From Thermodesulfovibrionia bacterium (GTDB taxonomy: Bacteria > Nitrospirota > Thermodesulfovibrionia > UBA6902), in assembly GCA_945786855.1 (NCBI GenBank), contig CALZGI010000026.1:1-64000 (forward strand): a stretch of 64,000 nucleotides of DNA, given 5' to 3'. A program made the position numbers and the translations under genes. The notes below the pieces were generated by a model. It searched no databases. It was not told the origin of the DNA and worked only from the letters and a program-made list of their open reading frames with translations. Of this stretch, positions 1,714 to 24,389 are shown piece after piece. Positions within the stretch are counted from its first letter, which is position 1. Each line of letters begins with the position of its first letter.

Positions 1714-3057
1714 TCACCGCCGGGGCACGCATTTTTTCAAAAGAGCAAATAACAGGGTATCGATCTCATCAACAAGTTCCTTAAAAAGGCCTCCATGGCT
1801 TTTGGACTCTGAAAACAGTACAGCACGCATTTTCTGTATTTCATCGTCATCACAGCGTTCGTAGGTGATGTGGCCTTTTTGTAAGGCATACCGTTCAAGG
1901 AGCAGGAGTTTCTTCGCCTGTGAGACAAAAGGAATGAGCTTCTCTTTTACTGCATGAAGGGCAGGCCCTTCTTCCCTCACTGAATTTTGAATATTCAGCA
2001 TTTCCGAAATTTCCCTTGTCAGAATGTACAGGGTATTGTACTCAAGTCCCCTGACCCCCCTTCTCCACTGCAACAGCATGGAGTTTCTCCAGAACCAGAG
2101 GAAGTTTCTCTCACCGAGAGCTATCAATTCAGCGCAGCTTTTATGCAGGGGCAATTCATGAATTGCCCCTACAGGATCTGCATCATCCCTGCTGCGCATC
2201 ATGTTTTTCTTTCCCGTTCCCGGCTTTTCTCCTGCAAGATAGACCCACAGGTTCCGGAGCACCTGCTCTCCGCCCCTGTCTTCCGGTGTATCAAAATGAA
2301 TGAGAGACAAGATGACCCTCCCTTTTCCGTAGACACCTTCAATAACCGCCGGTTCATGTTTCAGTCTTTTCGGGTCAAGATTGATACCGTATATCTCTTC
2401 CGGTTTGTCCCAGCCGCCGGAGGCTTCAACATCACCGACATTCAGGTCCGAACTGAACGCCTCACAAAGGGCATTTTCATAGGTCGCGAGTATTTTTATG
2501 TTTTCATCATGTACCACAAACTGCGAAGGCCACCATGCATGGAAAATAGATAAAGAGCCAGGAGTCAGGAGTGATGAGTTATGAATCCCCCCTTTGTCAA
2601 AGGATGGGAAAAGGGGATTTTTTTTATCAACTTCCTGCTTCAGGTCGTCCCAAATATGATGATTACGCAGATTCAGCTCTATCGGCCCGCTGAAACTGGG
2701 CACCCGTTCTCTTGTCGGTCTTCTCTTTACGTCGAGCAGGCCTATCCCTCCCTTTGCCCCCGTTGCCAGTCCGGCACCGCCGCAGAAGCCAAGATAGCTT
2801 CCCCCTCCTCGAACAAAATCCTGAATCTCTTTTATCCCCCCTTCTCCGAGGGCACTGCTTTTATTGGATGCCCATCCCCCCGGCACAAAGAGAAGCCTGT
2901 ATTCACGTAAAGCTCCGTCCCGAACATCAGCAGCCCTGATCAGATTAAAAGGAAGATTGATCCCTTTCAGTGATTTGTATGCCATGAGGCCCCAGAGGAA
3001 AGATTCGTCCCACAAGAATGCAACGCTGCTCTCTTTATCCATATCTGTAATTCTCAC
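1714..3057 (-). CDS. BPL_N / glutamine-amidotransferase-like protein
   Basis: The protein has about 447 residues, and its first 250 or so resemble the BPL_N family (N-terminal domain of eukaryotic-type biotin-protein ligases, a class I glutamine-amidotransferase fold). LLFVPGGWA is followed by IQDFVRGGGSYLGFCGGAGLATG with the nucleophile-elbow-like Cys, and later IEGVYGKGRVILSLIHFDTPEDRGGEQVL. The last 150 or so residues are helical and unassigned. The start appears to be GTG with AAGGGG just upstream. The gene is convergent with the HDOD gene. Three interspersed repeats are translated inside it: a 24-bp perfect palindrome (2147-2170), a 7-nt-period array (2555-2589) and a CCCC...GGGG inverted repeat (2584-2619). 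Substrate and role are unknown. It lies 242 bp beyond the B12 operon and could be read with it, but I see no proof. Confidence 0.65.
   Translation of the reverse strand: MRITDMDKESSVAFLWDESFLWGLMAYKSLKGINLPFNLIRAADVRDGALREYRLLFVPGGWASNKSSALGEGGIKEIQDFVRGGGSYLGFCGGAGLATGAKGGIGLLDVKRRPTRERVPSFSGPIELNLRNHHIWDDLKQEVDKKNPLFPSFDKGGIHNSSLLTPGSLSIFHAWWPSQFVVHDENIKILATYENALCEAFSSDLNVGDVEASGGWDKPEEIYGINLDPKRLKHEPAVIEGVYGKGRVILSLIHFDTPEDRGGEQVLRNLWVYLAGEKPGTGKKNMMRSRDDADPVGAIHELPLHKSCAELIALGERNFLWFWRNSMLLQWRRGVRGLEYNTLYILTREISEMLNIQNSVREEGPALHAVKEKLIPFVSQAKKLLLLERYALQKGHITYERCDDDEIQKMRAVLFSESKSHGGLFKELVDEIDTLLFALLKKCVPRR
2147..2170. repeat. 24-bp palindromic repeat translated inside the BPL_N gene
   Basis: A perfect palindrome, AGGGGCAATTCA and its exact reverse complement, followed by ACAGG. 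In the minus-strand gene it is read in frame as VGAIHELPLHKS. It belongs to the GTAGGGGC...GCCCCTAC family found elsewhere in the window. Confidence 0.85.
2555..2589. repeat. 7-nt-period degenerate array (GAGNNNN) inside the BPL_N gene
   Basis: Five consecutive 7-mers are visible: GAGCCAG, GAGTCAG, GAGTGAT, GAGTTAT, GAATCCC. They are translated in the minus-strand gene as part of HNSSLLTPGSLS. Confidence 0.7.
2584..2619. repeat. AATCCCC...GGGGATT inverted repeat inside the BPL_N gene
   Basis: AATCCCC at 2584-2590 pairs with GGGGATT at 2613-2619, with CTTTG...AAAGG-type internal complementarity. It is read in the gene as NPLFPSFDKGGI and directly abuts the 7-nt array. Confidence 0.5.
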
Positions 3058-5155: not shown

Positions 5156-5903
5156 GCTTAAAGTCTTTATGATAGAGCTTTGACTCTTTTTTCAATTGTT
5201 CTTCAGACGCCCTGAGCGCTTCGCCAATATAAATAAGGGCTGTTTTCTTAATACCCGCATCTTTTACTTTCCCTGCAATATCTTTCAGTGTCCCCTTGAC
5301 CAGTCTTTCATCCGGCCAGGAAGCCCTCTCAATAACCACAACAGGAGTGTCCTCCGGATATCCCTCCATGAGTTCCTTCTGTACCCTGTCAATCATGGCC
5401 ACGCTTAGAAAAATAACCATAGACGCCTTGTGCTGTGCGAGGCTGGACAGCTTCTCATCTTCAGGGACAGGGGTCCTTCCCTCAATCCTTGTGAATATGA
5501 CAGTCTGGCTTATTTCGGGAATTGTCAGCTCCTGCCCCAAAAGCGCTGCACCTGCCATGGCCGACGACACGCCGGGGACTATCTCGTAGGGAATATTCAA
5601 TTCGCGAAGTCTTTCAATCTGCTCTGATATTGCCCCATAAAAAGACGGATCTCCAGTATGGAGCCTCACAACACGCTTGTTTTCCCTGCAGGAATGATCT
5701 ATGAGTCCTACGATCTCATCAAGCGTCATTCCTGCTGAATCATATATCTCAGCTTTAATTCCTTGCAGCAGTTCAGGATTGACAAGGCTCCCCGCATAAA
5801 TTACGATATCCGCCTCATCCAGAAGATTTCTTCCCTTGACAGTAATAAGCTCGGGGGCACCCGGGCCCGCACCGATGAAGCAAACTTTAGGCCCCATTAC
5901 CAT
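5139..5903 (-). CDS. cbiF: precorrin-4 C11-methyltransferase (CbiF/CobM)
   Basis: This SAM-dependent enzyme methylates C11 of (cobalt-)precorrin-4. The 254 residues include the tetrapyrrole methylase signatures VCFIGAGPGAPELITVKGRNLL and ADIVIYAGSLVNPELL, then RLHTGDPSFYGAISEQIE and IPYEIVPGVSSAMAGAALLGQELT. Length and motifs match the family. AAAGGTG lies just before the ATG at 5903, and a second ATG at 5897 is also possible. The gene overlaps the end of the HD-domain gene by 17 nt and runs into cbiG by a 17-nt overlap, so translation is probably coupled. Confidence 0.93.
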   Translation of the reverse strand: MVMGPKVCFIGAGPGAPELITVKGRNLLDEADIVIYAGSLVNPELLQGIKAEIYDSAGMTLDEIVGLIDHSCRENKRVVRLHTGDPSFYGAISEQIERLRELNIPYEIVPGVSSAMAGAALLGQELTIPEISQTVIFTRIEGRTPVPEDEKLSSLAQHKASMVIFLSVAMIDRVQKELMEGYPEDTPVVVIERASWPDERLVKGTLKDIAGKVKDAGIKKTALIYIGEALRASEEQLKKESKLYHKDFKHGYRK

Positions 5904-6684
5904 TACGCACCTTTTTCAACACATATTTATGTAAATTTATTATTGCTGCCCCTATCTCAACCGTTTGAGGCAGTCTGGCAATTATTCTGTTTATGTAATT
6001 TCTCTCCACAAGAAGCTCCACAGACTTGTCGAAGTGTAAATCATATATCCACGATAGTTTCATCAGCTTGAAATCGTTTTCAGTTTTGATAGATGAGTAT
6101 GATGCAACTTCCCCTCCCGCAAGGGCCTGGAGCATATCCCTTGAATATTCCGGAGTATCGGGAACGCCAAAAGCTGTAGCAGACGCTCTGTCTTCTTCAG
6201 GGCTATCATAATATTCGATGAATACTCTGAAGATATCTACCTTGTCTGCATCCCTGATCAATTTCAGAAAAATAACAATATCTTCGCTCTGGCGTGAAGG
6301 TATCGCAAAGGCATTATGAAATTTAACAGTATTTATTATTAATTGCTGCTCATTGGCCGGCAGAGAATTCAGCACTCCCTCTTTTGATAAAGTCTCTGCT
6401 CCGAGCACCCCGTGATTTTGAGAATCAGCATCTCTAAAGGTCTTATATTGTGCATATTGAGGAAATCTTCCTATGTCATGAAAAAGAGCGCTTGCTTCAG
6501 CAAGCCGCTTTCTGTTTTCATCAAGCAGTATACTTTCCGTAATCTTTGTCATATTTCTCAGGACATTGTGAGAATGCTCTACTTTCAAAAATATGTTCTT
6601 CTGGTCTATTTCATCGCGGGAATAAAATGACCGCGTATAATCAGAAAACCACTCTTTAAAGAACAGCATATCGTCGTCAGTCAT
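5887..6684 (-). CDS. HD-domain protein embedded in the B12 operon
   Basis: This 265-residue protein is predicted to be a metal-dependent phosphohydrolase of the HD superfamily. The motif pattern is visible: VEHSHNVLRNMTKI, then ALFHDIGRFPQYAQYKTF, then a later VKFHNAFAIP and FLKLIRDADKVDIFRVF, giving the H...HD...D set. The start overlaps cbiL in an ATGA arrangement and the end overlaps cbiF, so it is clearly part of the operon. No B12 step is assigned to such a protein. The operon lacks an obvious precorrin-6A reductase, but nothing here looks like an oxidoreductase. Nucleotide or dinucleotide hydrolysis is an inference from the family only. Confidence 0.8.
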   Translation of the reverse strand: MTDDDMLFFKEWFSDYTRSFYSRDEIDQKNIFLKVEHSHNVLRNMTKITESILLDENRKRLAEASALFHDIGRFPQYAQYKTFRDADSQNHGVLGAETLSKEGVLNSLPANEQQLIINTVKFHNAFAIPSRQSEDIVIFLKLIRDADKVDIFRVFIEYYDSPEEDRASATAFGVPDTPEYSRDMLQALAGGEVASYSSIKTENDFKLMKLSWIYDLHFDKSVELLVERNYINRIIARLPQTVEIGAAIINLHKYVLKKVRNGNGA

Positions 6685-7450: not shown

Positions 7451-8749
7451 TCAGATTATTTCTCCTGCAACAATAAAAATAGGATTGAGTGCGCTCATAT
7501 GTCTTTTCCCACCGACCATCTTTGACCGGGAAACAGAAACTTCAGCAACATCAACGTGATATCCGTTCTTCTCGAAACACTGTATGGCTTCATTCAGAGT
7601 TTCAATTGTCGTCGCATTTGCTACAATAATGCCTGTGTTCATTGCACCTGCTGCGCATTGAACAATATCGCTCATCCCGCCTCCGCTTCCACCGACAAAA
7701 ACCCGCTGCGGGGCTGGCAAATCCCTGAGGGCGTCCGGGGCATTCCCCTGAACAGTATTCACATTCGACACACCGAAATTGTTTATGTTTTCATCGATAA
7801 TATGAATCTGCTCCAGTCTCTTTTCAACGGCAAATACATTCAGGTCAGGAAAGAGGCGTGCGGCCTCTAAAGAAACCGACCCGGATCCCGCACCCACATC
7901 CCAGAAGACTCCTGTCCGGGGCAGCCTCAATTTATGAATTGTCACTGCCCGCACCTCGTCCTTGGTGATGAGGCCCTTTGCATGTTCTATTTCCGATTCT
8001 CTGAGTCCAAAGGAAAAAATGTACGGGCGAGGTGACCTCGCCCCTGCATCCGTGCTTCCGATCTTCCGATCTTCCGATCTTTTAACAATAACTACATTAG
8101 GATGTTCGAATGGTCCTTTTACAATTTCACCAGGCGTACCCTCGACAATTCTTTCCTCAGGATATCCCAGTTTCTCACATACATACATCTTTAATGCTGA
8201 CCTCTGACCCCTGACCTCTGACCTCTTCAACAGCGTTTCCGCTATTTTTTCAGGACTGTTTACCCTGTCGGTGAGAATGGCAACCGTACCGTGCTTTGCC
8301 AGCAGTTCCGGCAGTTCAGCAATGTCATGTTCAAGCCGCCTTCTCTTTTCCGGGTCAGGCCCGCCGTGAAGACTTAACAACAGGGCATTATTCGATGTCT
8401 CTTTTACTCTGGAAAAGGCAACCTGAATGCTGGAGAGATCGGGATACACTTCAACGGCATCCTGCCCGAGTTTTTCGACGATCAACCGTCCTATTCCAAA
8501 AAACATGGGATCACCTGCAGCAAGGAGGGATATCTTCTTCTCCCGGTAATTCTCAATTATATAGTCAACGGTCTCATAGACGCTGTCATGTATTATGATT
8601 CTCTCCTGAACAGTCTCATATTCCCTGTAACTTTTGAATACTTTGAGAAGGCGGTCGTTGGTAAGGACAGCGTCCGAAGTACGTACAACATCTGCAGCCT
8701 TCTGTCCAAGGGGCCTGAAGCCTATTCCTACAACGTATGTTTTATTCAC
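7451..8749 (-). CDS. cbiET: fused precorrin-6B C5,15-methyltransferase/decarboxylase (CbiE-CbiT, CobL-like)
   Basis: This two-domain enzyme methylates C5 and C15 and decarboxylates the C12 acetate. Residues 1-215 or so are CbiE (YVVGIGFRPLGQKAADVV, LLAAGDPMFFGIGRLIVEKL, VEVYPDLSSIQVAFSRV). Residues 245-432 or so are CbiT, a class I SAM methyltransferase (GLITKDEVRAVTIHKLRLP, FWDVGAGSGSVSLEAA, VFVGGSGGG). The linker between the domains carries an octamer array (8055-8082) and a palindromic repeat (8025-8043), and a heptamer array (8198-8225) lies in late CbiE. All are in frame. The gene starts inside the cbiD 3' end (8-nt overlap). Confidence 0.93.
   Translation of the reverse strand: MNKTYVVGIGFRPLGQKAADVVRTSDAVLTNDRLLKVFKSYREYETVQERIIIHDSVYETVDYIIENYREKKISLLAAGDPMFFGIGRLIVEKLGQDAVEVYPDLSSIQVAFSRVKETSNNALLLSLHGGPDPEKRRRLEHDIAELPELLAKHGTVAILTDRVNSPEKIAETLLKRSEVRGQRSALKMYVCEKLGYPEERIVEGTPGEIVKGPFEHPNVVIVKRSEDRKIGSTDAGARSPRPYIFSFGLRESEIEHAKGLITKDEVRAVTIHKLRLPRTGVFWDVGAGSGSVSLEAARLFPDLNVFAVEKRLEQIHIIDENINNFGVSNVNTVQGNAPDALRDLPAPQRVFVGGSGGGMSDIVQCAAGAMNTGIIVANATTIETLNEAIQCFEKNGYHVDVAEVSVSRSKMVGGKRHMSALNPIFIVAGEII
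8025..8043. repeat. palindromic repeat translated inside cbiET
   Basis: GGGCGAGGT and ACCTCGCCC arms flank a single central base, followed by CCT. It is read in the minus-strand gene as GARSPRPY in the CbiE-CbiT linker. It is the same family as the element at 9562-9584. Confidence 0.8.
8055..8082. repeat. 8-nt-period array (CTTCCGAT) inside cbiET
   Basis: Three perfect CTTCCGAT copies plus CTTTT are read as RSEDRKIGS in the linker between CbiE and CbiT, 10 bp from the palindromic repeat. Confidence 0.85.
8198..8225. repeat. 7-nt-period array (TGACCTC) inside cbiET
   Basis: Four units, TGACCTC, TGACCCC, TGACCTC, TGACCTC, are translated as RSEVRGQRSA within the CbiE domain. Confidence 0.85.
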
Positions 8750-9896
8750 TTTTTGTTACTATCTCCCCATTATAGGACACAAGACAGGCTACTATCGAAG
8801 GGCCCTTTGCTGTTTGTTCAGCGTATTTTTTTGCCGAAAAACAAACCTTCTCAAGAAGCTTGTGAATGTCATCTCCAGCATTTTGATCAGACAGTATATA
8901 ATCGTAAATCTCCCGGGCCGTATTGAATTCCTGTTTTTCAGGTACGTTAAAGCCAAGAGAATTTAAAAACTTCACGGCCTTCCTTACATCAATCGCCCCG
9001 AACCGCACATGTGTCTGAGGGATAGCCATAGCAATTTTAACCATTTTCGCCCATTGAGCACAAAGGTATATTTTATTAAAATCGTGCCGGTCAGCTTCCC
9101 GGAGAGAGTATTCAAGGTAATCTCCCATGAGAACATAGGATTCTTCAGGCAGCCCGTATTTTTTCATGTGACTCTTTTCAGATGTCCGTCCTGCAGAAAG
9201 AACTATTTCTTTATACCCCATCGCCTTTGCAACATCCATTGATGACGAAATTGTTGATGTCCACGCCTCAGTGGAAACGGGCTTCACAATTCCCGTTGTC
9301 CCCAGTATTGAGATTCCTCCGACAATACCCAGCCTGTGATTCAATGTCTTTTTCGCCATCTCCTCACCCTTAGGGACAGAGATGGTAATTTCAATCGTAG
9401 GGGCAAGGCATGCCTTGCCCCTACAGCCCGCATCATTCATTGCTTCCCCCACAGCCTCCTCTATCATCTTTCTCGGGACCGGGTTAATCGCCGGTTCACC
9501 GACATCAACGGAAAGCCCGGGTTTGGTAATAGTGCCGACGCCTTTTCCGCCCTTTATAATGAGGGGCGAGGTGACCTCGCCCCTACCGCACGTCTTCACC
9601 AGTTTGGCTTCCGCCACGATTTCCGCTCCATTCGTCACATCAGGGTCATCCCCGGCATCTTTGATAACTGATGCCCATGCTGACCCCTCACGCCTGATCC
9701 CTGATCTCTGAATGTTAAATTCCACCCTGCCGCCGTCCGGGAAGGGAATAGCAACTTTACCATATCGGTACTTTTGCACTTTTGCACTGTTGCCCTCCTG
9801 CACTTCCTCTCCAAGCAGCTGCAAAGCTGCTGCTTTCGCCGCCGCTGCAGCACACGCTCCCGTCGTATACCCTGATCGTAATTTCTTTTTCTTCAC
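8742..9896 (-). CDS. cbiD: cobalt-precorrin-5B C1-methyltransferase CbiD
   Basis: CbiD methylates C1 in the anaerobic pathway. The family signature LRSGYTTGACAAAAAKAA stands at the N-terminus. It is followed by VGTITKPGLSVDVGEPAINPVPR, ISVPKGEEMAKKTLN, GGISILGTTGIVKPVSTEAWTSTI and LSAGRTSE. I prefer the GTG at 9896 with an AAGGGA-like site just upstream. The ATG at 9974 would overlap cbpB by 41 nt and translate an octamer array (9899-9930) as a non-conserved leader. Two palindromic repeats (9397-9424 and 9562-9584), a heptamer array (9681-9715) and an octamer array (9771-9802) lie in frame inside the gene. They lengthen it relative to its 350-370-residue relatives. Confidence 0.92.
   Translation of the reverse strand: MKKKKLRSGYTTGACAAAAAKAAALQLLGEEVQEGNSAKVQKYRYGKVAIPFPDGGRVEFNIQRSGIRREGSAWASVIKDAGDDPDVTNGAEIVAEAKLVKTCGRGEVTSPLIIKGGKGVGTITKPGLSVDVGEPAINPVPRKMIEEAVGEAMNDAGCRGKACLAPTIEITISVPKGEEMAKKTLNHRLGIVGGISILGTTGIVKPVSTEAWTSTISSSMDVAKAMGYKEIVLSAGRTSEKSHMKKYGLPEESYVLMGDYLEYSLREADRHDFNKIYLCAQWAKMVKIAMAIPQTHVRFGAIDVRKAVKFLNSLGFNVPEKQEFNTAREIYDYILSDQNAGDDIHKLLEKVCFSAKKYAEQTAKGPSIVACLVSYNGEIVTKSE
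9397..9424. repeat. 28-bp perfect palindromic repeat inside cbiD
   Basis: GTAGGGGCAAGGCA and its exact reverse complement form the element. It is read in frame in cbiD as GCRGKACLAPT, just before the conserved ITISVPKGEE strand, where relatives normally have a short link. Confidence 0.92.
9562..9584. repeat. palindromic repeat inside cbiD (second)
   Basis: Eleven-bp arms AGGGGCGAGGT/ACCTCGCCCCT flank one central base. It is read in frame as CGRGEVTSPL between AEIVAEAKLVKT and KGVGTITKPGL. Confidence 0.9.
9681..9715. repeat. 7-nt-period array (TGACCCC/TGATCCC) inside cbiD
   Basis: Five heptamers, TGACCCC, TCACGCC, TGATCCC, TGATCTC, TGAATGT, are translated as part of FNIQRSGIRREGSA. Confidence 0.7.
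9771..9802. repeat. 8-nt-period array (CTTTTGCA) inside cbiD
   Basis: Units CTTTTGCA, CTTTTGCA, CTGTTGCC, CTCCTGCA are translated as QEGNSAKVQK. The octamer is the same as in cbiL. Confidence 0.75.
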
Positions 9897-9898
9897 TC

Positions 9899-9930
9899 GG
9901 TCCCTTGGCCCCTCGACACCTTGACCCCTG
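9899..9930. repeat. 8-nt-period array at the cbpB-cbiD junction
   Basis: Units GGTCCCTT, GGCCCCTC, GACACCTT, GACCCCTG fill the gap between the cbpB stop (9934) and the proposed cbiD GTG start. Its presence argues that the longer cbiD N-terminus is not native. Confidence 0.6.
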
Positions 9931-9933
9931 TTT

Positions 9934-11295
9934 TTAGTATTGATATTCCATAACCATCTGATCAAGCGAGTCATCGCGGAGGAGATACTTCACGTTGTCC
10001 TCGGCAATCATTTTAAAAGCATGCACTATTACCTCTTTGTAGAAATCGCAGAACACGGCTTTTTTATTTATATTTCCACGGGCATACATCTCCGCGGGGC
10101 AGGGTGATCCACAGATGTGCCTGAAATCACAGGTGTCACATTCATCAATATGCTCCACCATCCGGGACCTTATTTTCTTGAAGGGCTTCGAGTCCATTGC
10201 CTTTGCGATTGACGTCTTGAAAATATTACCGCCGGAAAACTCCTTGTAACCAATAAACTCCCCGCAGGGCACCATTGCACCATCAGCTGTTACCGTAAGA
10301 AATGTCCTCCCGCCTCCGCAGGGAGAAATGTCGCACATCATTCTCCGCGCAGTCGGAGATATTATGGCAAGCAGTACATTGGCAAAGTTACCGACCACAA
10401 TCTGGCGCTTCGTTTTCTTTGTAAGGGCCATTGCCGTATCAACGGCATTTATCAGGTTCTTCGCGAAAACACTGTCATCGGGCTTCACCTTGTCCGAACG
10501 TTTCTGGGTCACACGGACAGGATTGAGGAGGACCATGGGCACTTCCTTTTTGTGGAGGAACTTTACAAGGTCAGAAAGTTTATCTACATTGTATTTGTTA
10601 ACGGTACAGATAACATTCAACCCCTCATAGCCCTTAAACCAGTCCAGCGCCTGCACGGCCTTTTTATAGTTTCCTTCACCCTTCCGTGAGACACGGGACA
10701 GATTATTTACGTCCGCTGTTGCCGCGTCAAGGGATATCCCAATGCCGACACGATATTTTTTTATGAGATCCACATCCTCTTTTTCGAGCAGAAGAGCGTT
10801 GGTCTGGATGCCAAAAAGCATTTTTCTGTGATATTTTTTGATGGCCCCGAAGAGGATATCCTTTACGAGGAGGGGTTCTGCTGCATGAAAAACGATGACT
10901 GGTTTTTTCTTTGTGCCTTTGAAATGTTCAACTATTTTACTGAGCGCCGTGTCAAGCTGTTCGGCAGTCATCTGCGTTCCGCTCTGCCGTATCTTCGAAG
11001 GGATATAGCAGTACGGACAGTTCGCATTGCACCGGTCCGTCGGATCTATGTACACGCAGTTTAAAGGTTCATTGAACCTGAAGTTGTGCATTTCCGTATC
11101 AAGATGTTTCATCTCTTTCTTATAGAGGTCTATCAGATTCCCGGGGAGCATGAAATCCCCGTTGTTCCTCGGGAGAACACTCCAGAATATATTGTCCGGA
11201 TCAAGGGCCAGCTTCCAGTTTTCGTCAATATTGGAAAATGACAACCCCCTTTCAACACTGCTTTGAGATGATCCGCATTTGTTTTTTTTGCTCAT
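9934..11295 (-). CDS. peptide-modifying radical SAM/SPASM enzyme, CbpB-like
   Basis: This is a radical SAM enzyme of 453 residues. The 4Fe-4S motif CNANCPYC gives C89, C93, C96, followed by a TIM-barrel section (IVFHAAEPLLVKDILFG, FGIQTNALLL, IGISLDAATADVNNLSR). A Cys-rich SPASM tail (MCDISPCGGGRTF, GAMVPCGEF, CDTCDFRHICGSPCPAEMY, FCDFY) binds auxiliary clusters, as in RiPP maturases. I recall a family named CbpB, paired with a short precursor CbpA near B12 genes. This enzyme and the 45-aa gene just upstream fit that description, but the name is from memory. The start at 11295 is chosen for GGAGATAAAAATT immediately before ATG. An in-frame upstream ATG at 11469 would overlap the peptide gene. 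Confidence 0.85.
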   Translation of the reverse strand: MSKKNKCGSSQSSVERGLSFSNIDENWKLALDPDNIFWSVLPRNNGDFMLPGNLIDLYKKEMKHLDTEMHNFRFNEPLNCVYIDPTDRCNANCPYCYIPSKIRQSGTQMTAEQLDTALSKIVEHFKGTKKKPVIVFHAAEPLLVKDILFGAIKKYHRKMLFGIQTNALLLEKEDVDLIKKYRVGIGISLDAATADVNNLSRVSRKGEGNYKKAVQALDWFKGYEGLNVICTVNKYNVDKLSDLVKFLHKKEVPMVLLNPVRVTQKRSDKVKPDDSVFAKNLINAVDTAMALTKKTKRQIVVGNFANVLLAIISPTARRMMCDISPCGGGRTFLTVTADGAMVPCGEFIGYKEFSGGNIFKTSIAKAMDSKPFKKIRSRMVEHIDECDTCDFRHICGSPCPAEMYARGNINKKAVFCDFYKEVIVHAFKMIAEDNVKYLLRDDSLDQMVMEYQY

Positions 11296-11347
11296 AATTT
11301 TTATCTCCTTTGTTATTAATTTATTCTCTCTGTTGATGTCGTTCCCT

Positions 11348-11381
11348 CCAAGGGGAGGAATCCTGTGATTTCTCCCCTTGG
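11348..11381. repeat. inverted repeat in the cbpA-cbpB spacer
   Basis: Perfect 10-bp arms CCAAGGGGAG and CTCCCCTTGG flank a 14-nt loop. It lies in the 170-nt spacer upstream of the radical SAM gene, together with the 11-bp hairpin at 11412-11452. It could stabilise RNA or damp read-through from the peptide gene to the enzyme gene. Confidence 0.7.
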
Positions 11382-11411
11382 ATAAAAGGACATCCTCTCT
11401 GTATAAAAGGG

Positions 11412-11452
11412 GGGCAGGCGGTTTCAACACATGCGTGCCGGACCGCCTGCCC
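11412..11452 (-). terminator. strong hairpin (possible attenuator) downstream of the peptide gene
   Basis: On the minus strand, GGGCAGGCGGT and ACCGCCTGCCC form a perfect 11-bp stem with a 19-nt loop, followed by CCCTTTTAT. It begins about 14 nt after the cbpA-like stop. The short T-run suggests partial termination, which would make the precursor more abundant than its maturase. It could also be another interspersed repeat. Confidence 0.55.
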
Positions 11453-11465
11453 TGTACTTCATCGA

Positions 11466-11603
11466 TCAAAGAGGCATCTTCTTCTTAGGCACATCACCGT
11501 ACATGACGAAATGGGTCAGCCCGTTGGCTGTTGTTGCACATTTCATGTGATACGAGATAGCTGCAGCCTTAGACTTCTTTTCAGACTTTTTTGCCTTTTT
11601 CAA
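11466..11603 (-). CDS. 45-aa precursor peptide, CbpA-like, TTG start
   Basis: A small gene with a TTG start and a very strong Shine-Dalgarno (GGGAGGTGA, 8 nt spacing) that overlaps the cbiO stop codon, so it is probably translationally coupled. The 45-residue product begins with a Lys/Ala-rich leader (KKAKKSEKKSKAAA). It continues ISYHMKCATTANG and LTHFVMYGDV and ends with PKKKMPL. One Cys (22) sits beside His19 and Met20, with His31, Met34 and Tyr35 nearby: plausible sites for radical-SAM chemistry or metal binding. The radical SAM/SPASM gene follows 170 nt downstream. It lies exactly between the cobalt transporter cbiMNQO and cbiD. A modified peptide linked to cobalt or B12 is an inference. 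I recall a similar family named CbpA. Confidence 0.8.
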   Translation of the reverse strand: MKKAKKSEKKSKAAAISYHMKCATTANGLTHFVMYGDVPKKKMPL

Positions 11604-11608
11604 TGATG

Positions 11609-12454
11609 TCACCTCCCTTTCAATGAAGTATCGAGAGATTTAAGAATCTCCCGTCGTGCCTCACCAATGGTGAGGGGAATCCGCTCAAAGTCAACTTTAT
11701 CTTCATGCTTGAGCCTGTATATCAGCTCAGCAATATGAGGAAGTCGGAGCTTAATGTCTGCCATATCTTCCGGCGCATGAAAAACTTCCTCAGGGGTACC
11801 TCCTCTTGTAATTTTTCCTCCGCTCAGGATATGAAGTTCATCAAGGAATACAGGAACGAGGTCCACGCTGTGCGTGGCCATTACTATCGTTACCCCGTTT
11901 TCCTTATTCAGCTTTTTCAACAGATTCATCATCTTGTATTCACCCATGGGATCGAGACCGGCAGTGGGTTCGTCGAGAAAAAGGATCTCGTGACCCATGG
12001 CAAGCAGTCCCGCAATGCAGGCGCGCTTTCTCTGGCCATAGCTCAGGTTATGCACCGATTTTTTTTCAAGGCCTGTCAGCTCAACCTCTTCAATGGCTGT
12101 CATAACGCGCCTGTTCACCTCATCTTTATTGAACCCCATATTCAGAGGGCCAAAAGCAACGTCTTCAAAAAGGGTGGAGGCAAAAAGCTGATCATCAGGG
12201 TTCTGAAAAACCAGTCCGATTTTTTTGTAAATCTGTTTCGGAGTTAGTTCGCGTATATCCTTTCCATCAAGATATACAGAACCCTCAAAGTCCTTGACCA
12301 GGCCGTCCATGGTCCTGAGGAGTGTTGTCTTGCCCGACCCGTTTGCGCCCAGCAGCCCGACGAAGGCGGCCTTCTTTACCTTCAGATGAATGTTCGAAAG
12401 GGCAGACGTTCCGTCGGGGTAGCTGTATGAAACATTTTCAACAAAAAGCCTCAT
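11609..12454 (-). CDS. cbiO: cobalt ECF transporter ATPase CbiO
   Basis: This is the ATP-hydrolysing subunit of the CbiMNQO cobalt importer, on the cytoplasmic face. The 281 residues have Walker A GANGSGKTT, Q-loop LVFQNPDDQLF, ABC signature LSYGQRKRACIAGLL, Walker B EILFLDEPTAGLDP and the H-loop THSVDL. The start is taken as the ATG whose A is shared with the cbiQ stop (TGATG), which places VENVSYSYPDG at the usual position. The peptide gene begins 5 nt after its stop, and its ribosome-binding site is formed by the last cbiO codons. Confidence 0.94.
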   Translation of the reverse strand: MRLFVENVSYSYPDGTSALSNIHLKVKKAAFVGLLGANGSGKTTLLRTMDGLVKDFEGSVYLDGKDIRELTPKQIYKKIGLVFQNPDDQLFASTLFEDVAFGPLNMGFNKDEVNRRVMTAIEEVELTGLEKKSVHNLSYGQRKRACIAGLLAMGHEILFLDEPTAGLDPMGEYKMMNLLKKLNKENGVTIVMATHSVDLVPVFLDELHILSGGKITRGGTPEEVFHAPEDMADIKLRLPHIAELIYRLKHEDKVDFERIPLTIGEARREILKSLDTSLKGR

Positions 12455-13215
12455 CAGATCATCCATATCATTACTCCGCATATCACACATACCGCTGCTG
12501 CAATAATCTCTCCTGTTTTAAAAGGACTTTCACCGAGGGTCGGCAGCTCACCCGTATATCCCCGCTGCACCATTGCCTCCGAAGTCTTCTGGCTCTGTTC
12601 AATTCCGCGAAGCACGAGTGTGCCCGTCAGGACGCCGAATGAGTGAAGTCCCTTCCTTATACCTGAATAACCGAGCCGGTTTTTCTGGGCACTGTAAATG
12701 GTCACACCATCATCAAGGAACATGAAAAGATAACGATACGCAAACATCATGATTTCCACAAACTGCTTTGGCACCCTGAGCCATGACAGGGCCCCGGCAA
12801 ACTCAAGAAAGGGCGTGGCAAAGCCGAGGGCAATTACAAGAGACACCCCGCCCATTACCCTGGAAACTATCCTGAACCCTTCCATAAGACCGTCACGATA
12901 ACCGACGATTTCAAGTCCCAGGATGTTCCCTGAAAACAGCACCTCGTCCCCTGAAAAAAAGAATTTCATGACCAGGACAACCAATGCTATGAACAGAGGC
13001 TGGGCAAACCGAAGGAGCAGTACTCTTAAGGGGATGTGCATATTCATGCAAAGCACTAATGCTCCTGAAGCCACGAGCAGCGGGAAAAACATTCCTTTAT
13101 AACTGAGTACCAATAACACAAGCACGATCACCACAAGGAGTTTGATCCTTGCATCTATCTTTGACAGAAAGTGATCTTTCCTGAAGTGCTCGGAAAAACA
13201 TTTATGAAAAACCAT
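12454..13215 (-). CDS. cbiQ: cobalt ECF transporter T component CbiQ
   Basis: This is the transmembrane coupling subunit of the cobalt importer. The 253 residues hold several hydrophobic segments (LLVVIVLVLLVLSYKGMFF, LFIALVVLVMKFFF and others). The CbiQ hallmarks LSKIDARIKLL near the N-terminus and the coupling helices around ALSWLRVPKQFVEIMMFAYRY and TSEAMVQRGYTG are present. It overlaps the end of the CbiN-like gene by 14 nt and shares a base with the cbiO start. Confidence 0.92.
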   Translation of the reverse strand: MVFHKCFSEHFRKDHFLSKIDARIKLLVVIVLVLLVLSYKGMFFPLLVASGALVLCMNMHIPLRVLLLRFAQPLFIALVVLVMKFFFSGDEVLFSGNILGLEIVGYRDGLMEGFRIVSRVMGGVSLVIALGFATPFLEFAGALSWLRVPKQFVEIMMFAYRYLFMFLDDGVTIYSAQKNRLGYSGIRKGLHSFGVLTGTLVLRGIEQSQKTSEAMVQRGYTGELPTLGESPFKTGEIIAAAVCVICGVMIWMI

Positions 13216-13549
13216 CAGTTTTCTCCTTTGCGGTACAGCATTCAGATATTTTCGATCCAGATTCAGTCAGAGTACGCCAGTAGTACCCTGCGGCAAAACC
13301 AGCAATAATTCCGCCAATGAGAAACATAAAAAGCAGCAGGTCTCCCTGGTCGGTATTAATGAGCGGGTCGAGCGGAGCACGTCCATGCTCTTCTGCATAC
13401 TTCTCAACTACGGACTCATCCACACCACCCCATTTATCTGAAGCAGTTACTGGCAAATCAATAGATGTAAAAAAGAAGAATGTTATTATGGAAAGCAATA
13501 AAATTAACTTGTAATTTGTAATTTGTAATTTGTAATTTATTTTCTTCAT
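13202..13549 (-). CDS. small membrane protein, CbiN-like component of the cobalt transporter
   Basis: A 115-residue protein sits between cbiM and cbiQ, where CbiN is usually found. After an N-terminal hydrophobic segment (LILLLSIITFFFFT) come an exported region (SDKWGGVDESVVEKYAEEHG, then DPLINTDQGDLL) and a second membrane helix (LFMFLIGGIIAGFAAGYYW). This topology fits CbiN or a PDGLE-type substitute. Identity with classical CbiN is not obvious by eye, so the name is left open. The start overlaps cbiM as ATGA. Directly after the start codon the coding sequence crosses four perfect GTAATTT repeats, giving the unusual N-terminus MKKINYKLQITNYKL. Confidence 0.75.
   Translation of the reverse strand: MKKINYKLQITNYKLILLLSIITFFFFTSIDLPVTASDKWGGVDESVVEKYAEEHGRAPLDPLINTDQGDLLLFMFLIGGIIAGFAAGYYWRTLTESGSKISECCTAKEKTDGFS
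13511..13538. repeat. four perfect tandem GTAATTT heptamers
   Basis: Exact 7-nt tandem repeat with partial units on both sides. It encodes residues 5-14 or so of the CbiN-like protein (NYKLQITNYKL on the minus strand). It is the least diverged of the 7-nt arrays. Confidence 0.92.
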
Positions 13550-14301
13550 ACCGCACCTCCTGCCTGTTCCTGCTTTATCACTCCAAGTTTCACAAGAAGA
13601 TCGGCCCGACGCTTATACAGCAGCGTGACCATGCCAGCCGTCATGGCACCCTCGACTACTCCAAGCGGAAGCTGGGTCGGGACAAAGGCAATCAATATTT
13701 TGCTGAATAAAGGCCAGAAGGGCTCATCCCCCCTGATTCCCGAAGCAAGCTCGACAGAAGTTGTAAAGTATATAGCCCAGTCCGAAAACAGTCCGGCAAA
13801 GAATGCAGAAACACCGAGGCCGGCATTCATCTTCCTTAAAAGCCTGAATACTCCTAGGCCGACAAAGGCCCCCATCACGCCCATCGACACAACATCTGCA
13901 CCCCATGTACTGAGCCCTCCATGGGCAAAAAAGAGTGCCTGAATCAAGAGGGCAACACCTGCAACAAGTACACTGATTGAGGGCCCTACAAGTATGGCCG
14001 GAATAGCCGTGCCTCCCGGATGGGAACAGGTCCCGGCTGTTGGTACAGGAATGGGCATAAGAGATATGACAAAGACTATTGCCGCCATAAGCCCGATGAG
14101 GGGCTTGAATGATAAATCCGCTTCAGAGAGGGCCTTCATCCTCTTAAGGCCCCATGCCACAAAGGGGAGAGCTACGGCAAACCAGAAAGCCGCCCAGTTA
14201 AAAGGAAGTATGCCTTCCGAAATGTGCATGGCGTATGCTCTGTCTGTAATCAATAATGCTGTGAGCACGGCCAACACAAATATATGCAATTTTCTCTTCA
14301 T
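13546..14301 (-). CDS. cbiM: cobalt ECF transporter S component CbiM
   Basis: This is the metal-binding integral membrane subunit of CbiMNQO. The 251 residues start with a signal-like segment, after which the processed N-terminus would begin with MHISEGILP, the CbiM metal-binding signature (Met-His at the mature N-terminus). Further hallmarks are PIPVPTAGTCSHPGGTAIPAILVGP and FFAHGGLSTWGADVVSMGVMGAFVG. Its start lies 79 nt after the cbiXC stop. The CbiN-like gene overlaps its stop. Confidence 0.94.
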   Translation of the reverse strand: MKRKLHIFVLAVLTALLITDRAYAMHISEGILPFNWAAFWFAVALPFVAWGLKRMKALSEADLSFKPLIGLMAAIVFVISLMPIPVPTAGTCSHPGGTAIPAILVGPSISVLVAGVALLIQALFFAHGGLSTWGADVVSMGVMGAFVGLGVFRLLRKMNAGLGVSAFFAGLFSDWAIYFTTSVELASGIRGDEPFWPLFSKILIAFVPTQLPLGVVEGAMTAGMVTLLYKRRADLLVKLGVIKQEQAGGAV

Positions 14302-24115: not shown

Positions 24116-24158
24116 CATAAACCTTTACCCTCACAACCTCTTCCCTCGAAGGTTTATG
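24116..24158 (-). promoter_or_regulatory. 10-bp hairpin between aptamer and terminator (candidate expression-platform element)
   Basis: CATAAACCTT (minus strand, from 24158) is perfectly complementary to AAGGTTTATG (ending 24116), with a 23-nt loop. It lies between the B12 box and the terminator, as expected for a switching helix. The exact ON/OFF pairing needs folding. Confidence 0.6.
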
Positions 24159-24164
24159 TGTGAG

Positions 24165-24345
24165 GCGCGGTTCAGGCAGGTCTTCTGGCTCTCCCGATCT
24201 CTACTTGCCTTCCCTGTAATATTAACAAGTGGCGTTGCGAGTGTAGAGACTGTGAATTCCGAATGGAGTGGAAATCGGGATTACAGCGGCGGGTCCGCTC
24301 CAGTATTTCACTGGATTCCCCATTAAGCCCATACAGGCACCTGAA
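24165..24345 (-). promoter_or_regulatory. cobalamin (B12) riboswitch
   Basis: Read on the minus strand, the aptamer runs from CAGGTGCCTG (24343) through GGGAATCCAGTG, GCGGACCCGCCGCTGTAATC and AACGCCACTT to the B12 box GCCAGAAGACCTGCCT (ending about 24174). Spacing and core match the cobalamin-riboswitch family. It is followed by a switching helix and an intrinsic terminator in front of cobU. High adenosylcobalamin is expected to stop transcription of the whole operon. Confidence 0.95.
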
Positions 24346-24358
24346 CAATATGTATCAA

Positions 24359-24389
24359 ATTATACCCTATAGGATTGATGGTTAGTCAA
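24359..24389 (-). promoter_or_regulatory. sigma70-like promoter of the B12 operon
   Basis: On the minus strand, TTGACT (24389-24384) and a perfect TATAAT (24364-24359) are separated by 19 nt. They lie 16 nt upstream of the aptamer start. The spacing is a little long, but position and -10 quality are convincing. Confidence 0.75.

Follow-up and report, generated by a model that had tools for sequence, protein, structure and literature searches.

A two-gene unit, cbpAB, encoding a short precursor peptide (CbpA) and a radical SAM peptide maturase (CbpB), probably plays an auxiliary part in B12 metabolism that has so far gone unrecognised. It was analyzed in the window, the whole stretch of 64,000 nucleotides of contig CALZGI010000026.1 from a Thermodesulfovibrionia bacterium, and in its relatives. 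We regard it as an evenly balanced proposition that the pair supplies a B12-repressed, intracellular modified peptide that acts on corrinoids rather than on free cobalt. Biosynthesis and salvage of B12 are usually viewed as enzymatically understood, and a modified peptide would be an unrecognised component of the pathway. Carriers of the pair include Nitrospirota, Omnitrophota, Planctomycetota and ANME-1 archaea, and the pair stays with cob, cbi and btu genes although its position among them has changed many times. The CbpA/CbpB pair is already named in NCBIfam (TIGR04164 and TIGR04163), and searches of the open-access literature found no study of CbpA/CbpB or of either model. Several features are new as far as checked: a branch of divergent CbpA peptides that escapes the public model, members in archaea, stand-alone units with a riboswitch, occurrence in salvage operons, and the way in which the pair moves among B12 genes. 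The proposal turns a nameplate annotation into a testable claim.

The cbpA gene lies on the minus strand at 11466–11603, with a TTG start codon (11603–11601), a stop codon at 11468–11466 and 45 codons, which translate to MKKAKKSEKKSKAAAISYHMKCATTANGLTHFVMYGDVPKKKMPL. An 8-nt match to the Shine-Dalgarno sequence (GGAGGTGA, minus strand, 11609–11616) is located 5 nt ahead of the TTG and overlaps the cbiO stop codon (11609–11611). The TTG-started reading frame with a strong ribosome-binding site that the initial annotation described is real, and its coordinates hold. The window peptide gave no match in NCBIfam or Pfam, including none to TIGR04164 at E values up to 10 (curated cut-off 35 bits). 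Peptides adjoining the most typical CbpB genes match TIGR04164 (modified peptide precursor CbpA) at 47–56 bits, and a peptide from locus L020 scores 15 bits. The alignment of 41 peptides, 28 of which match TIGR04164 at E values up to 10, is continuous, with only Cys22, Gly28, Leu29 and His31 (window numbering) invariant besides the start methionine. Since these intermediates link it to the peptides matched by TIGR04164, the window peptide is, judged by sequence homology, a divergent CbpA. It resembles the canonical family as a short, Lys-rich precursor directly upstream of cbpB with a Cys...GL(S/T)H(F/Y) core; its core ends FVMYGDVPKKKMPL, whereas the canonical core ends YILMDKK. The family names CbpA and CbpB given in the initial annotation proved apt, and the gene is indeed easily missed, as the Nitrospirota form is usually TTG-started and escapes the public family model.

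A scan of GTDB contigs returned 423 related stretches, and among the best 80 of these, kept by identity to the window CbpB, nearly all loci whose upstream sequence is long enough have a CbpA-like reading frame ahead of cbpB. The arrangement, with this frame directly upstream of cbpB, is found in Nitrospirota, Omnitrophota, Planctomycetota, Kiritimatiellota and ANME-1 archaea, the last represented by five ANME-1-type loci. Conservation of the peptide beside homologous radical SAM genes, on which the initial annotation had staked its reading, was found: a homologous frame was parsed in 108 of 119 related loci, a count that includes duplicate loci and in which the misses are partly due to contig edges. 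The start codon is TTG in 55 of these 108 loci, and 70 carry a Shine-Dalgarno match of 8–9 nt. A core of 21 codons occurs in 61 distinct DNA versions that encode 24 peptide versions, with a mean pN/pS of 0.08; variation falls at third codon positions (column entropy 0.25, 0.15 and 1.28 bits at positions 1, 2 and 3). In Nitrospirota the core is nearly unchanged while CbpB drops to about 70% identity, and the C-terminal tail of the peptide is also conserved within lineages. These data confirm that cbpA is a genuine gene under strong purifying selection, rather than a chance reading frame.

The product of cbpB (minus strand, 9934–11295, ATG at 11295) contains 453 residues and was matched by TIGR04163 at 506.6 bits (cut-off 375), far above every other family. 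It comprises a radical SAM domain (PF04055) and a SPASM domain (PF13186), in agreement with the SPASM-type enzyme expected downstream of the peptide. The CxxxCxxC motif (C89/C93/C96) falls in invariant cysteine columns, and the seven-cysteine SPASM set is likewise invariant (C326-X12-G-X4-C344, C386-X2-C389-X5-C395-X3-C399 and C416). The nearest folds to an AlphaFold model (mean pLDDT 76) are CteB, anSME, TigE and ChlB. CteB (5WHY) is the best match in both fold and sequence among solved structures, and PapB is the next-best family model after TIGR04163. CbpB shares with the CteB/SCIFF and PapB ranthipeptide maturases the character of a SPASM radical SAM peptide maturase; however, it scores below the cut-offs of both families, CbpA has a single cysteine, and cbpAB stands in a B12-regulon context. 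The enzyme anSME acts on a single cysteine and has the same SPASM fold (TM-score to the target 0.78–0.83), but CbpB fails the anSME model TIGR03942 (122 versus 349 bits), and its predicted substrate is a 45-residue peptide instead of a sulfatase. CbpB presumably acts on CbpA, and the one invariant cysteine would be compatible with a thioether cross-link of the ranthipeptide or sactipeptide type. By analogy, kinship to CteB and PapB suggests a cysteine cross-link, and kinship to anSME suggests cysteine oxidation.

In the window, cbpAB is located between the genes of a cobalt ECF transporter (cbiM, a frame in the cbiN position, cbiQ and cbiO; minus strand, 11609–14301), directly upstream of cbpA, and cbiD (minus strand, 8742–9974; TIGR00312, 343.8 bits), directly downstream of cbpB. 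The neighbours originally assigned are correct, with the cbiN position occupied by a 115-residue frame without a family match. A cobalamin riboswitch (RF00174, 94.3 bits; minus strand, 24158–24359), 12.5 kb upstream of cbpA, heads a collinear string of anaerobic B12 genes in the order cobU, cobT, cobS, cobC, cobQ, cbiB, cobD, cobB, a cbiX-cbiC fusion, cbiM, the cbiN-position frame, cbiQ, cbiO, cbpA, cbpB, cbiD, cbiE-T, cbiL, an HD-domain protein gene, cbiF, cbiG and cbiH; cobU and cobS were assigned by sequence reading and cobT by search. The pair had been described as under the B12 riboswitch: the riboswitch does head the string, while its control over the distant cbpAB is something we infer from gene order.

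Analysis of the surroundings of cbpAB in 84 loci (L047–L130) bore out the suggested tie to B12. In 71 loci the immediate same-strand neighbour is a gene of the B12 pathway or of corrinoid uptake, or one closely associated with them, and eight further loci have a cobalamin riboswitch directly upstream, giving 79 of 84 linked to B12; neighbours were labelled by tblastn with the B12 proteins of the window and the BtuFCD, CobA and DUF71 proteins of relatives, and a few of the individual labels may be inexact. Of the remaining five, L120 and L127 sit at the ends of contigs, L119 has cobN beside it and is divergent from a cobalt transporter, and L097 and L110 have other neighbours, away from recognised B12 genes. 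In L110 (7886–14260, a Deltaproteobacteria MAG) the pair is flanked by two genes for U32 peptidases (UbiU/UbiV-like), an ABC1 (UbiB-like) kinase is encoded nearby, and the vicinity contains no B12 gene.

The arrangements include cbiO-AB-cbiD, cbiO-AB-cobA, cbiB-AB-cobB, cbiB-AB-DUF71, cobQ-AB-cbiB, cobU-AB-cobT, cobT-AB-cobS, cobD-AB-cobB, AB-cobT and AB-btuF, and 19 changes of arrangement were mapped on the CbpB tree. A cobalamin riboswitch directly precedes cbpA in ten loci, forming stand-alone cbpAB units (89–321 bp in the nine that were measured, plus L121). Three loci (L121, L124 and L125) carry two back-to-back, divergent cobalamin riboswitches, one for cob genes and the other for cbpAB. 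The canonical pairs found here are mostly such stand-alone units, in contrast to the window pair inside a cobalt/B12 operon. Locus L108 has the order riboswitch-btuF-btuC-btuD-cobC-cobU-cbpAB-cobT-cobS-TonB receptor, with btuFCD encoding a periplasmic binding protein, a FecCD permease and an ABC ATPase, and by its gene content is a corrinoid-salvage operon.

In four loci (L096, L099, L112 and L129) cbpB is adjoined by a DUF71 (PF01902) gene. The B12 subgroup of DUF71, an uncharacterised neighbour of BtuCDF and CbiB, has a predicted role in salvage (PMC3541065). It is similar to CbpB in being uncharacterised and in its B12-salvage neighbourhood, but it is a PP-loop ATPase whose sequence is unrelated to that of CbpB.

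The occurrence of the pair among genomes speaks to whether it serves cobalt or corrinoids. CbpB was found in 38 of 396 genomes of the window's phylum and, in the phylum to which the Planctomycetota genome G447 belongs, in 5 of 392. In the window's phylum it is missing from most genomes that use B12, and the function of cbpAB is thus optional. CobT is present in 48 of 51 CbpB genomes, CbiF scores above its cut-off in 27 of 51, and CbiD was found in 29 of 53. The co-occurrence with CobT was considered as proof of a lower-ligand role and was dropped, since CobT is present in 315 of the 396 genomes of the phylum (80%) anyway. In eight Omnitrophota genomes (G431–G434, G436–G438 and G441) neither CbiD nor CbiF was found, with cobT and cbpAB both kept, and three of the eight also lacked a CbiM-type gene; these genomes are MAGs, such that the absences are indicative of a salvage-only status and could partly reflect incompleteness. 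One of the eight carries the salvage operon of L108. CbiM-type genes are present in many of the cbpAB genomes negative for CbiD and CbiF, where the CbiM model also covers nickel transporters. The presence of cbpAB in MAGs where CbiD and CbiF were not detected indicates that the pair is not restricted to genomes with cobalt insertion into corrins.

These distributions bear on the cobalt carrier raised in the initial annotation, in which modified CbpA would bind Co(II) delivered by CbiMNQO and pass it to CbiX. The direct succession of cbiO and cbpAB in most Nitrospirota loci, the invariant cysteine and histidine of the peptide, and the B12 riboswitch heading the operon all agree with such a role. 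However, no conserved multi-ligand metal site is present among the 41 peptides, where Cys22 and His31 alone are conserved as possible ligands; His19, Met20, Met35 and Met43 of the window peptide vary among relatives, which leaves the Cys/His/Met metallopeptide unsupported as a general role. In other lineages the neighbours act in uptake or late in the pathway. Salvage operons such as L108 are not where a peptide serving only cobalt delivery would be expected, yet the pair persists in such operons in genomes where CbiD and CbiF were not detected, three of them also without a CbiM-type transporter. The cobalt carrier is therefore weakened and now appears unlikely, and the gene content points to a tie to the supply of corrinoids at large rather than to the import of cobalt.

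The corrinoid-directed peptide that we favour would operate as follows. At low B12 the riboswitch would permit transcription, and CbpA would be made from its strong Shine-Dalgarno site. CbpB would then modify the core around Cys22...Gly28-Leu29-(Ser/Thr)-His31-(Tyr/Phe), the likeliest change being one that involves Cys22, either a cross-link or an oxidation, and the product would presumably stay in the cell. B12 repression, as deduced from the riboswitch, assigns the pair to the supply of B12. The steps common to de novo synthesis and salvage are corrinoid reduction and adenosylation, aminopropanol attachment and nucleotide-loop assembly, and the cbpAB neighbours cobA, cobQ, cbiB, cobU, cobT and cobS fall within this shared stretch of the pathway. 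Modified CbpA might assist incomplete corrinoids at the stages from cobyric acid to cobinamide-phosphate, as a carrier, a surrogate axial ligand or a redox helper in the cobalt reduction and adenosylation that precede nucleotide-loop attachment. A lower ligand derived from the peptide was considered as a further possibility. Because these intermediates have no intramolecular lower ligand, the invariant histidine, together with the modified cysteine, could hold or activate them. The narrower version, in which modified CbpA is an intracellular carrier or surrogate axial ligand (through His31/Cys22) that enables reduction, adenosylation or lower-ligand attachment of incomplete corrinoids, is put forward tentatively. 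If true, it would define a peptide chaperone of B12 metabolism, de novo and salvage, common to several bacterial phyla and ANME-1 archaea.

The product could instead be a redox cofactor, with CbpB starting the conversion of CbpA into a compound of the PQQ or mycofactocin kind for a corrinoid reductase. PqqA/PqqE and mycofactocin MftA/MftC, like cbpAB, combine a near-invariant small precursor with a SPASM radical SAM enzyme in a cofactor-related setting. Bacteria and archaea share an almost unchanging CbpA core, as in cofactor precursors rather than antibiotics, and in 11 loci cbpB is followed by cobA. In contrast to the PQQ and mycofactocin systems, no further processing genes, whether a dedicated protease or another tailoring enzyme, were seen beside cbpAB, and conservation of the C-terminal tail within lineages points to use of the entire core; a derived cofactor is accordingly improbable. 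Modified CbpA might also serve as a B12-deficiency signal that, in cells starved of B12, acts on a regulator, a receptor or the ribosome, as the stand-alone riboswitch-cbpAB units and the optional occurrence of the pair among B12 users would allow; the absence of a conserved regulator or receptor partner gene, and the co-operonic genes being enzymes and transporters, make this quite improbable. A secreted natural product (an antibiotic or cobamide scavenger) that is only incidentally B12-regulated would fit the radical SAM RiPP architecture and the TonB receptor close by in some loci, but is very improbable given that no exporter or protease gene lies beside cbpAB in the window and that the core is near-invariant across phyla, unlike an arms-race product.

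The 5'-deoxyadenosyl radical, and the window genome (G000), in which neither a CobA/BtuR (PF02572) nor a PduO-type (PF01923) adenosyltransferase was found, had prompted the separate idea that CbpB substitutes for the corrinoid adenosyltransferase. Relatives of the window genome have CobA, and its absence there is possibly an assembly gap. Neither PF02572 nor PF01923 was found in four B12-synthesising Omnitrophota genomes (G416, G418, G425 and G427). The substitution was ruled out, as CobA was found in most CbpB genomes, often encoded adjoining cbpB.

The 170-nt gap between cbpA and cbpB contains two strong predicted RNA hairpins (minus strand, 11335–11452). The first has an 11-bp stem (11452–11412) followed by CCCTTTT, the second spans 11394–11335, and the fold of the region 11296–11465 has an energy of -68.8 kcal/mol (z -7.25). 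The hairpins may dampen expression of cbpB compared with that of cbpA, or make the cbpA transcript more stable. Stems of at least 8 bp occur in 39 of 63 homologous gaps, versus 3.4 expected. Their sequences are unrelated and some resemble dispersed palindromic repeats; therefore, no common function is claimed for them, and a conserved terminator between the two genes, initially considered, was dropped.

No CbiJ-type reductase was identified in the window operon, and three other proteins of the string are observed in relatives. The 115-residue frame between cbiM and cbiQ (minus strand, 13202–13549) is kept in relatives and has no Pfam or NCBIfam match. The HD-domain protein inside the cbi string (minus strand, 5887–6684) is kept in many relatives, and its gene is directly downstream of cbpB in L055. 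A 447-residue protein at the end of the string (minus strand, 1714–3057), without an NCBIfam match, is found beside cbiH in relatives, and its N-terminus, by reading, resembles a domain of the glutamine-amidotransferase type.
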